From positions 1-42,081 of the forward strand of contig NZ_CABFUZ020000122.1 of the NCBI RefSeq assembly GCF_902143385.2: 42,081 nucleotides of DNA, read 5' to 3'. Every line of letters starts with the position of its first letter. Positions within the stretch are counted from its first letter, which is position 1. This DNA is from Methylacidimicrobium cyclopophantes (GTDB lineage: Bacteria > Verrucomicrobiota > Verrucomicrobiia > Methylacidiphilales > Methylacidiphilaceae). The translations under genes and the position numbers were made by a program. Under the pieces are notes generated by a model. The model searched no databases. It saw only the letters and a list, made by a program, of their open reading frames with translations, and was not told the origin of the DNA. This document shows positions 8,459-37,225 of the stretch, piece after piece.

Positions 8459-9454
8459 GTGGAGATCTTCGCTTCCAAAAAAACGTCTCCTTCCGCACCC
8501 GGGAAGCGGGTGGAAGCCAATCACCGATCGGCTCAATCGGAGGCATCTATTGCCGATTCGCCTCCGTCGGAGCGGGGGACGGCTCAAAGCAGAAGGGACG
8601 TAGGGGAGGCTGCTCCTGCAAAATGGAGGACTTCGGCTCGATCGATCGAGCTCTCGCCGGATCGGCCGCTCATCATGGGCATCCTCAATCTCACTCCCGA
8701 TTCCTTTTCCGATCGTGGGCGACGGCGTTCAGCAGAGGAGGCGGCGGAGGAAGCGCAGCGCATGGAGGAGATCGGAGTTGACCTGGTGGACTTCGGAGCG
8801 GAGTCGACGCGGCCTGGGGCGGACCCGGTTTCGGAAGAGGAGGAGTTACGCAGGCTGCTCCCGGCCTTGGAACGAGCCGCTGGAAGGCTTACCGTCCCGA
8901 TCTCGGTCGATACGTACAAGGGAAGCGTAGCCCGAGCCGCTCTTAGAGAGGGGGCGGAGATCGTCAACGACGTCTCTGGAGGGAAGTGGGATACGGGTGT
9001 GTGGGAGGCGGTGAGGGAGTTCGGGGCGGGTTATGTCTTGGTCCATTCCCGAGGTCGGCCGAAAACCATGCATGCGGATGCCGTCTATCGGGACGTCGTC
9101 CGGGAAGTAAAGGAGGAGATGCGGGCTCGTCTGGCGCACTGCGTGGAATCCGGCATTCCCCTTGAGGGAATCCTGTGCGACGTGGGGTTTGGATTTGCGA
9201 AGACGGTGGAGCAGAACTGGACGCTGCTTCGAAACCTGCCCGTTTTTGCCGAAATGGGGCGACCACTCCTGGTGGGCGTTTCGCGGAAGAGTTTTCTTCG
9301 GGAGCTCGTCGGAGAAAGGGACCAAGATACGGCGAGTGTGGTAGCGGAAATCCTGGCTTCGACCAAAGGCGCGGCGGTCTGGAGGGTCCATGACGTGGAC
9401 GGGGCGATCGCCGCCCGGAAGGTCTTTTCCGCCCTGCAGGGAGGTTTCCGGTGA
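8459..9454 (+). CDS. folP: Dihydropteroate synthase
   Basis: Condenses 6-hydroxymethyl-dihydropterin pyrophosphate with p-aminobenzoate to make dihydropteroate in folate synthesis; the sulfonamide target. Family signatures are clear: MGILNLTPDSFSD, DFGAESTRPGA, ISVDTYKGSVARAALREGA with VNDVSGG, and LVGVSRKSFL near the end. The usual DPGxGFGK reads DVGFGFAK here, a mild divergence. From the first GTG (8459) the protein is 331 residues, about 60 longer than typical; the extra N-terminus is low-complexity and may not be translated. An in-frame GTG at 8510 is an alternative start. The stop overlaps the cdaA start as GTGA. folP next to glmM is known from proteobacteria, and folP next to diadenylate cyclase genes occurs in other phyla. 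Confidence 0.92.
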   Translation: MEIFASKKTSPSAPGKRVEANHRSAQSEASIADSPPSERGTAQSRRDVGEAAPAKWRTSARSIELSPDRPLIMGILNLTPDSFSDRGRRRSAEEAAEEAQRMEEIGVDLVDFGAESTRPGADPVSEEEELRRLLPALERAAGRLTVPISVDTYKGSVARAALREGAEIVNDVSGGKWDTGVWEAVREFGAGYVLVHSRGRPKTMHADAVYRDVVREVKEEMRARLAHCVESGIPLEGILCDVGFGFAKTVEQNWTLLRNLPVFAEMGRPLLVGVSRKSFLRELVGERDQDTASVVAEILASTKGAAVWRVHDVDGAIAARKVFSALQGGFR

Positions 9455-10194
9455 AGGCTTACGGGTTGCCTCTCTCCTGGGTGGCGGAGATCCTCATCAT
9501 CGCCGTCGTCATTTATCAGGTCTGGAAGCTTTTGCAGGGGACGCGCGGGGTGCAGGTATTGACCGGACTCTTGATCGTCCTCGTGGTGCTCACCCTCTTT
9601 TCCACGGTTCTCCACTTGCGGGTCGTCACTGAATTGATTCGCCTCTTTTCTCCCTCCTTTTTCGTCGCGCTCGTGGTTCTCTTTCAGCCCGAACTGCGGC
9701 AGGTGCTCGCCGAAGTGGGACGCCGGAGTGTCACAAGTTCGGGTCGGCAGCAGCAGGCGGAAGTGATCGAGCATATCGTTAATGCGGCGGAAATTTGCCA
9801 GCGGGAGCGTTTCGGAGCCCTGATCTCCTTGGAACGGGAAGATCTCTACCGACCGGCTCGAGATACGGGGACCATCCTGGACGCGAAGTTAAGCGCGGAT
9901 CTCCTGGTAACGACCTTCTATCCGCGGACTCCTCTCCATGACGGCGGCGTGGTCATTCGGGAGAATCGCCTCGTCGTCGCGGCTGCGGTTTTCCCGTTGA
10001 GCGAAACCGAGAGGCTCGAGCGTCCTCTGGGGCTGCGTCATCGAGCGGCGTTGGGTTTAAGCGAGATGACCGACGCCGTCGTGATCGTGGTATCCGAGGA
10101 GACGGGCGTCATTTCCATTGCCTTGGAGGGCAAGCTGGAACGTCACTTCGATCCGGATCGGCTGCGCGCACGATTGACGGAGATCCTTGTTTAG
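9451..10194 (+). CDS. cdaA: Membrane diadenylate cyclase (c-di-AMP synthase)
   Basis: A 247-residue CdaA/DacA-type enzyme that makes cyclic di-AMP from two ATP. Three hydrophobic helices (about 10-26, 35-54, 64-80) are followed by the DAC domain. The catalytic-site motifs are DGG at 164-166 (in LHDGGVVIR; the usual text is DGA) and RHR at 196-198 (GLRHRAALGLSE). FQPELRQVLAEVGR is the standard linker. The GTG start lies in a GTGA overlap with folP. Downstream come a CdaR-like stub and glmM, the same order as the cdaA-cdaR-glmM operon of Firmicutes. In those systems c-di-AMP controls potassium and turgor, and CdaR and GlmM modulate CdaA. A similar role here is inference. Confidence 0.93.
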   Translation: MKAYGLPLSWVAEILIIAVVIYQVWKLLQGTRGVQVLTGLLIVLVVLTLFSTVLHLRVVTELIRLFSPSFFVALVVLFQPELRQVLAEVGRRSVTSSGRQQQAEVIEHIVNAAEICQRERFGALISLEREDLYRPARDTGTILDAKLSADLLVTTFYPRTPLHDGGVVIRENRLVVAAAVFPLSETERLERPLGLRHRAALGLSEMTDAVVIVVSEETGVISIALEGKLERHFDPDRLRARLTEILV

Positions 10195-10226
10195 TCGAAC
10201 AATGCGCTCCGAAACGCAAAGAGAGG

Positions 10227-10364
10227 ATGGGCGTGCTGCTGCATAACTGGAAACAGAAGCTCATTTCCCTGATCCTCGCGATCGCTGTTTGGGCGATCCT
10301 CCGCGAGTCGATTGAGCCGGGGTCGATCGACCAGATTCTCTCTTCGCTTGGGCTCGCCAAGTGA
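10227..10364 (+). CDS. 45-residue CdaR/YbbR-like membrane anchor, lacking YbbR domains
   Basis: A short open frame: ATG 10227 (preceded by GAGAGG) to TGA 10362-10364. It reads MGVLLHNWKQKLISLILAIA, then VWAILRESIEPGSIDQILSS and GLAK. The pattern N-W-K-x-K-L-x-S-L-x-L-A-x-x-x-W is the N-terminal membrane anchor of YbbR/CdaR proteins. It sits between cdaA and glmM, exactly where cdaR is found in other genomes, and its stop overlaps a GTG of glmM as GTGA. CdaR normally continues with three or four extracytoplasmic YbbR repeats; none follow here, and the stop leads directly into glmM. It is either a reduced CdaR that still anchors or regulates CdaA, or the remnant of a decayed gene. Coding status is supported by position, spacing and motif, not by length. 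Confidence 0.7.
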   Translation: MGVLLHNWKQKLISLILAIAVWAILRESIEPGSIDQILSSLGLAK

Positions 10365-10378
10365 TCCAGGGTGAGGGC

Positions 10379-11749
10379 ATGAGAGAATCCGCACGACGAC
10401 TTTTCGGAACCGATGGCATTCGGGGTACGGCGAATCGGCATCCGCTCACCCCGACGGTTGCCGTCGCCGTGGGCGCAATCGCCGCTGATACTCTGGCGGC
10501 GGGGAAAAAGAGGAAGATCGTTGTGGGACGCGATCCTCGCATTTCGAGCGAGCTGCTGGAATCGGCGTTGGTCGCGGGGATTCTTTCCGCCGGCGTAGAT
10601 GCGGTGCGTCTCGGTGTGCTGCCGACACCAGCGGTGGGCGAGCTGGCAAGACAGACCGGCGCTGCGGGGGGAGTGATGATCAGCGCCTCGCACAATCCAT
10701 TTCCGGACAACGGCATCAAGCTTTTCGGAGAGGACGGGGCGAAGGTTTCGGAGGAGACCGAAGAAGAGATTGCCCGGCGTCTTGGTGATTATCCGTGGAC
10801 CTCTTCGGAAGGGCCCGTCGGTGCACTGGTCGGGCGCCTCCAGCCGCTTCCGCGGGCGCGAGAGCTTTATCTGGAATTGCTCCGGAGCCGATGGCCGGCA
10901 GGGGCGGATCTCTCCCGGCTGCGGATCGTGGTGGATGCGGCGAACGGAGCGGTCTCGGAACTCGTGAGTCCGCTTTTTGCTTCTCTGGGAGGGGACCCGT
11001 ATATCTTTTCGGCCAGTCCCAACGGCCTCAATATCAACCTTGGTTGTGGCAGCATGCATCCGGAGAGGCTTGCCGAGCTCGTCCGGCTTGCGAATGCCGA
11101 CGTCGGCTTGGCCCTCGACGGGGACGGGGATCGTCTTCTCTGTTGCGACCATCGGGGAGAGGTCTTGGACGGGGATGATCTTCTGGCAATCTTGACTCTT
11201 GACTATCAACGTCGCGAGGTTCTTGCCAATCGGACCGTAGCGACCACCGTGATGAGCAATCTTGGACTCGATCGGATGTTGCAGGAGGCAGGAGTCCGAG
11301 TCGTTCGAACCCCGGTCGGCGATCGGCACGTAGCGGCAGCCATGCGTGCCCAGGGGCTCAACCTCGGCGGTGAGCAATCGGGGCATCTTTTGCTCTTGGA
11401 TCAGGCGGCGAGCGCCGACGGATTGCGTGCGGGATTGGAAATTCTCCGCATCATCCTCACCACAGGGCGGCCTCTCGCGGAGCTCCGCCAATGCCTGCGC
11501 AAATATCCGCAGCAGCAAATCAGCTTGGCCGTGCGGGAAAAGAAGCCTCTGGAGTCGATGCCGAACGTAGAGTCGGCGATCGCCGAAGCGGAACGGGGAT
11601 TGGGGACCGAAGGGCGCATCCTTCTCCGCTATTCTGGAACCGAACCGAAAATCCGCTTGCTGATCGAAGGTCCCGATCCTGAGGCGTTGGAGAAGTGGAA
11701 AGAGCGGCTGCTTCTCGCACTCCGACACGAGGAAATTTTGCTCTCCTAA
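10379..11749 (+). CDS. glmM: Phosphoglucosamine mutase
   Basis: A 456-residue enzyme that interconverts glucosamine-6-phosphate and glucosamine-1-phosphate, feeding UDP-GlcNAc for peptidoglycan and LPS. FGTDGIRG opens the protein, the phosphoserine loop ISASHNPFPDNGIK places the active Ser at 104, a DGDGDR metal-binding loop is present, and the C-terminal phosphate-binding RYSGTEPKIR is intact. I prefer ATG 10379 because GGGTGAGG lies just upstream; GTG 10361, which overlaps the preceding stub as GTGA, would add six residues. In Firmicutes GlmM binds and inhibits CdaA, so its place downstream of cdaA may be functional. Its 3' end overlaps the convergent LolA-like gene by four bases. Confidence 0.96.
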   Translation: MRESARRLFGTDGIRGTANRHPLTPTVAVAVGAIAADTLAAGKKRKIVVGRDPRISSELLESALVAGILSAGVDAVRLGVLPTPAVGELARQTGAAGGVMISASHNPFPDNGIKLFGEDGAKVSEETEEEIARRLGDYPWTSSEGPVGALVGRLQPLPRARELYLELLRSRWPAGADLSRLRIVVDAANGAVSELVSPLFASLGGDPYIFSASPNGLNINLGCGSMHPERLAELVRLANADVGLALDGDGDRLLCCDHRGEVLDGDDLLAILTLDYQRREVLANRTVATTVMSNLGLDRMLQEAGVRVVRTPVGDRHVAAAMRAQGLNLGGEQSGHLLLLDQAASADGLRAGLEILRIILTTGRPLAELRQCLRKYPQQQISLAVREKKPLESMPNVESAIAEAERGLGTEGRILLRYSGTEPKIRLLIEGPDPEALEKWKERLLLALRHEEILLS

Positions 11750-36936: not shown

Positions 36937-37148
36937 ATCCGACGACCGGCGGGTTCTTTGACGAAAACCGGGAGTTCGGCGGTGGATCGACAAAAAAGTT
37001 TTTGAGCAGAGTTCGCGATGAATTTCCCTGTGCTGCGCGTGCTTGGAATGCATGCCTTTCCTCCGATACGTCCGATTACGGGAGCCGGCGTTGCTCGCGA
37101 TGCTGACGCCAGGCCTTCACTGGAAGACGGAGGCACGCGGCAAGGCTC

Positions 37149-37167
37149 CCACTTGCCTGCAAAGTGG
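37149..37167 (+). other. Intergenic stem-loop (CCACTT/AAGTGG)
   Basis: A perfect 6-bp stem with a 7-base loop; 30 bases upstream of a longer stem-loop. No U-run follows. Possibly part of a structured transcript. Confidence 0.4.
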
Positions 37168-37197
37168 TCGAAAGGCCCCATTTCCACACGGCAGCAT

Positions 37198-37225
37198 GGG
37201 GAACTTTTTTGAGAGGAAGTTCCCC
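37198..37225 (+). terminator. Candidate transcription terminator downstream of pheT
   Basis: GGGGAACTT (37198-37206), a 10-base loop and AAGTTCCCC (37217-37225) form a perfect 9-bp stem followed by TTTCGTTTCG. It lies 260 bases after the pheT stop. The T-run is interrupted, so rho-independence is uncertain. Confidence 0.45.

Follow-up and report, generated by a model that had tools for sequence, protein, structure and literature searches.

The cdaA locus

The window, by which we mean the whole stretch of 42,081 nucleotides from Methylacidimicrobium cyclopophantes that was analysed, carries cdaA, a frame of 45 codons and glmM, all three on the forward strand (Table 1). A folP-like frame lies upstream of cdaA and shares a 4-base overlap with its start. 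The CdaA protein exceeds the cut-off of the TIGR00159 model (209.6 against 188.8 bits), is composed of the CdaA_N transmembrane domain and the DAC domain as judged by Pfam, and displays the RHR motif as LRHRA. At the position of the DGA motif the window's cyclase has DGG; HDGG is found at 119 of the 139 cdaA loci of the class and HDGA at the remaining 20, and an Elusimicrobia cyclase (L309) has HDGA instead. Elsewhere in the window, positions 37022-37206 match 6S RNA (Rfam RF00013, 61.7 bits).

Table 1. Features of the cdaA locus, in positions of the window
Feature	Position	Strand	Basis
folP-like dihydropteroate synthase frame	8459..9454	+	ORF list; identity by sequence inspection only, without family search
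cdaA, membrane diadenylate cyclase, 247 aa, GTG start	9451..10194	+	TIGR00159, PF19293, PF02457
Anchor-only CdaR-like gene, 45 aa	10227..10364 (ATG 10227 to TGA 10364)	+	ORF, conservation in congeners, dN/dS, profile match
Conserved anchor NWKQK-LISLILAIAVW-AIL, residues 7-25	10245..10301	+	Alignment, motif tally, hydropathy
Short tail RESIEPGSIDQILSSLGLAK	10302..10361	+	Alignment; EPGxxDQ in much of the order
glmM, phosphoglucosamine mutase	10379..11749	+	TIGR01455 (491 bits, over cut-off); start from congeners

The product of the 45-codon frame, MGVLLHNWKQKLISLILAIAVWAILRESIEPGSIDQILSSLGLAK, contains a single hydrophobic stretch. Its ATG start is kept in the congeners, with GTG 10233 as a possible alternative in the window. 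The conserved anchor consists of a cytoplasmic NWxxK element and a transmembrane stretch, the hydropathy reaching its maximum of 2.48 at residues 11-25, and the tail is predicted to lie outside the membrane, as inferred from the positive-inside rule and the topology of CdaR.

The initial annotation also described a GTGA overlap between the small frame and glmM, a claim that probably does not hold. The open frame of glmM begins at GTG 10361; the glmM similarity in congeners, however, mostly starts at residue 7 of this long frame, equivalent to ATG 10379, and the small frames of the congeners end in TAG. The overlap thus probably comes from choosing the longest open frame as the gene, and glmM likely starts at ATG 10379, leaving 14 bases between the two genes.

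The small frame is a gene under selection

The 138-bp frame that the initial annotation placed between cdaA and glmM is confirmed; the gene is conserved in all congeners and selected. A whole-genome search of 60 relatives with the small frame recovered matches at E <= 10 in 33, and the frame is present in each of the 13 genomes of the Methylacidiphilum family, the own genome included. Across the order the product spans 44-73 aa, encoded near cdaA, glmM or both, and W8, K11 and W22 are invariant over 23 aligned sequences. For congener pairs in two genera, Nei-Gojobori counts gave dN/dS values of mostly 0.03-0.12, and the variable columns fall on codon positions 1/2/3 in the proportions 9/2/30 and 7/1/29, respectively. 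The low dN/dS, together with the predominance of third-position variation, demonstrates purifying selection at the protein level, and hence a real gene; for translation itself there are no data.

The length is the same in seven species of the genus, single-contig genomes among them. A frameshift or assembly error was considered and rejected, given this identical length and the absence of room for a remnant before glmM. None of the models of Pfam, NCBIfam or PHROG matches the small frame, and the gene would consequently be annotated as a hypothetical protein at best. That it may be too short for routine gene callers is a suggestion of the initial annotation only.

Homology to the anchor of CdaR

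A profile of the small frame was compared with the N-termini of full-length CdaR from other classes, yielding an hhalign probability of 94% and an E-value of 9e-8 over 33 columns. Profile comparison therefore establishes homology between the small gene and the CdaR anchor, and the proposed identity of its N-terminal pattern with the CdaR/YbbR anchor is upheld. In a phylum-wide scan of 289 genomes, the same profile picked up, outside the class, frames some 320-430 aa long in genomes (e.g. G104, G135 and G240) where PF07949 matches a frame of equal length close by; these other classes possess full-length CdaR.

The small protein itself has no YbbR domain detectable by Pfam, its chain stopping 23 residues past the last conserved tryptophan, and by definition it is no YbbR protein. 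Searches of the own genome returned zero matches to PF07949 and to a purpose-built profile of a single YbbR domain, the latter without a positive control. Two checks set beforehand were accordingly both survived: relatives carry the conserved frame under purifying selection, and the searches of the genome detected neither a full-length nor a single-domain CdaR. The 45-aa product is likely what remains of CdaR once the extracytoplasmic YbbR domains are removed.

A search of the PDB with the stub profile gave no meaningful match, and in entry 9g69, a near full-length cyclase with GlmM, no CdaR chain was found by profile. An alignment mixing cyclases with stubs placed the latter on TM1 of CdaA, which we regard as a misplacement.

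Distribution in the class and in Elusimicrobiota

CdaA-model matches were obtained in 183 of 189 genomes of the class, 134 of them over the cut-off, and 139 cdaA loci were surveyed. A separate, short anchor-only frame of 31-111 aa is present at 82 loci, while at 34 the anchor sits within a longer frame of 127-229 aa; six of these longer frames were tested in Pfam, with YbbR over the cut-off in five and just under it in the sixth. Another 6 loci were scored as fusions of CdaA and anchor, and 17 as having no anchor. The anchor profile exceeded 10 bits near the 3' end of cdaA at 112 of the 139 loci and at none when the opposite strand of these loci was scored, with the reservation that the profile was built partly from those same loci. 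An earlier conclusion that YbbR is absent throughout the class was rejected, since the sample behind it had missed the families with single-YbbR forms.

The 17 anchor-negative loci are of different kinds. At four the gene is found elsewhere (before glmM in three f3 cases, at a distance in L040), and six belong to f4, where an additional hydrophobic helix closes the CdaA chain. It is conceivable, on weak grounds, that this helix is a fused, diverged anchor. A C-terminal hydrophobic helix of CdaA was observed at f4 loci L127, L131, L136, L213-L215 and L223, e.g. RRLVRAAICLGLAVIAWGGLGVIVAGMR. The remaining seven, five f2 and two f22 loci, show no visible anchor alongside a canonical CdaA, which indicates that the anchor is not strictly required.

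On a quick, unrooted CdaA tree the five anchor states need eight changes, and the short forms of f80 and f100 nest within the clade of single-YbbR forms, on a branch with good support. Reduction has thus probably occurred more than once. At a number of loci (L110, L111, L113, L115, L116, L118, L122, L150 and others; f13, f18, f22 and f92) the small gene and the 3' end of cdaA share roughly 104-152 bases in different reading frames; in these overlaps the CdaA tail is hydrophilic and variable and the anchor frame conserved.

A similar arrangement exists in Elusimicrobiota. A genome scan recovered, in an Elusimicrobia MAG, a 31-aa frame, MNFRELFTRNWEIKILSLIIALLIWYFIVGG, overlapping the stop of cdaA. 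Anchor matches at E <= 1 were found in 67 of 120 genomes of this phylum, PF07949 in only 3 of the 120, and all 20 loci examined, the best by E-value among the 67 matching genomes, contain a frame of 24-43 aa immediately downstream of cdaA. The variable columns (14/4/23 by codon position) follow the same selection trend. The two phyla have the pattern N-W-x2-K-x6-A-x3-W in common, and K and W are present without exception in the sequences of the two sets, although the pattern search had required K/R and W/Y at those positions. For the loci examined, the reduction hence spans much of the class and, separately, Elusimicrobiota. The initial view that the lineage of the window has kept only the part of CdaR able to touch CdaA in the membrane is supported, but the reduction is wider than that lineage.

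The anchor gene is tied to cdaA

Most anchor matches in Verrucomicrobiota lie directly after cdaA. Exceptions are f3, where the gene precedes glmM and cdaA is on another contig, and Methylacidiphilum, where up to 1.3 kb separate the small gene from cdaA while it still abuts glmM. Genome G167, which we take to be Akkermansia muciniphila ATCC BAA-835 (as we take G012 to be Methylacidiphilum infernorum V4), encodes a 50-aa stub at locus L147, followed by a bioD-like gene rather than glmM.

The two genes also occur together. In a tally by hand of 70 class genomes scored for both, from which families with single-YbbR forms were left out, all 43 genomes with a stub match at E <= 0.01 have a CdaA below 1e-40, and none of the 27 with no stub match, or only one at E > 0.1, has a CdaA below 1e-10. 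G282 stands outside this tally: its match, within a long frame, is doubtful, and the genome received no CdaA score.

Moreover, CdaA and the anchor share one frame in G271 and Verrucomicrobium sp. BvORR106 (L282), both of 325 aa, and in G150. An indel error is unlikely for the former two, considering that two assemblies display the same fusion, and the topology is consistent, with the DAC end inside and the anchor N-in. In G277, G365 and G392 a divergent DAC paralogue comes with an anchor and an extracytoplasmic part. Divergent membrane DAC proteins of 400-546 aa with a C-terminal helix and an extracytoplasmic part were also noted at L194, L196, L209, L219 and L220, and such a protein sometimes shares its genome with a canonical CdaA. 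Neighbourhood, co-occurrence and fusion together establish the tie of the anchor gene to cdaA. Covariation between anchor and CdaA columns over 193 pairs (Neff 70, underpowered) revealed no enrichment in the CdaA membrane domain.

Proposed role of the small protein

In Firmicutes, CdaR and CdaA interact via their membrane domains (PMC8573169, PMC8316131, PMC10243994). CdaR has been reported both as an activator and as a repressor (same three references), and its mechanism on CdaA is called unclear (PMC8573169). We consider it likely, with a probability of approximately 0.66, that the small protein is a CdaR-derived subunit of a single helix, which associates with CdaA in its membrane domain and controls how the cyclase assembles or how active it is, with no sensing outside the membrane. 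Membrane insertion is inferred, and CdaA binding and an effect on c-di-AMP are inferred from the published CdaR work. According to this model, a lone N-in transmembrane helix, preceded on the cytoplasmic side by the short NWxxK segment, would insert beside the membrane bundle of CdaA (at TM1, by analogy) and remain as a constitutive, permanent subunit, determining how stable the cyclase is, its oligomeric state or its basal activity. The part kept would be exactly the membrane contact of CdaR with CdaA, and YbbR-mediated input from outside the membrane would have been given up in the anchor-only lineages. Whether the activity of CdaA is raised or lowered cannot be said, and regulation as such, including the proposal of a minimal regulator of diadenylate cyclase, is still inference.

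The own genome encodes a PgpH-type 7TMR-HD protein (G000:C156:3888-4451, L230), likely a c-di-AMP phosphodiesterase, which suggests that the c-di-AMP pathway is probably live. No ydaO riboswitch was found in the genome.

Alternative explanations

According to the strongest rival, the helix does not act on CdaA but holds GlmM, or some other cytoplasmic partner, at the membrane close to CdaA, with NWxxK as the contact. The position of the gene in f3 and in Methylacidiphilum, where it stays with glmM despite its separation from cdaA, speaks in favor. On the other hand, in A. muciniphila and most of the Elusimicrobiota examined the gene follows cdaA with no glmM in the stretch fetched, the fusions are with CdaA and none with GlmM was seen, and GlmM is published to bind the catalytic domain of CdaA directly (PMC8573169). 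We find this explanation unlikely. Similarly improbable is that an unrelated small membrane protein took the place of cdaR, the likeness arising because short helices resemble each other. The homology does rest on only about 33 columns, and short hydrophobic segments are prone to convergence; however, the profile match involves specific N, K, A and W positions beyond hydrophobicity, and a graded series from full-length via single-YbbR to anchor-only forms occupies the same operon slot.

Less plausible still is a role in cis, where translation of the frame couples cdaA to glmM expression and the peptide is unimportant. Tight spacing and the overlaps with cdaA and glmM would fit, but selection acts at the amino-acid level, K and W are kept over two phyla, and the gene is retained where no glmM lies downstream and where it is fused to CdaA. 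That the gene is the decaying remnant of a longer CdaR, or a CdaR cut short by a sequencing error, is supported merely by the analogy that truncated genes often are relics, and is all but ruled out by the dN/dS, the equal length in seven species and the lack of room for a remnant before glmM.

A bolder version of the single-helix subunit model can be entertained as a possibility only: the anchor helix alone would be the core regulator of CdaA, a microprotein that senses how tense or how thick the membrane itself is and switches the assembly of CdaA, while the YbbR domains would be a dispensable addition. Everything but this core would then have been lost repeatedly, in two phyla, and the helix of Akkermansia would govern the c-di-AMP implicated in host immunity.

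Implications and relation to known systems

The anchor-only lineages represent a natural experiment, in which all of CdaR but the membrane anchor has been removed. That these lineages retained just the helix, and did so under strong selection, says that it functions in its own right. They moreover supply ready-made minimal constructs of 24-50 aa, and natural helix fusions, for the study of the CdaR helix. For the gut bacterium A. muciniphila, whose c-di-AMP reportedly acts as a key stimulus of the immune system (PMC10243994, citing Lam et al. 2021), the stub is by inference a previously unrecognised, likely partner of the cyclase. We found no description of an anchor-only CdaR in the open-access literature searched.

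The small gene resembles that of CdaR (YbbR) of Firmicutes in following cdaA and preceding glmM, and in an N-terminal anchor that is homologous by profile and predicted to form a single N-in helix. It differs in lacking any YbbR domain, of which CdaR has three or four (PMC10243994), and in its 45 aa as compared to roughly 300-450. Fusions of CdaA and CdaR also occur in some streptococci, and AlphaFold points to a pairing of the CdaR helix with the first TMD of CdaA (PMC10243994). The cyclases of BvORR106, G271 and G150 are likewise naturally fused to the regulator helix; these, however, include the helix only, without a YbbR domain, and in the window the two genes are separate. A further comparison is with the single-YbbR CdaR-like frames in other families of the class, which share the anchor and the slot after cdaA, yet, unlike the small gene, retain at least one YbbR domain.
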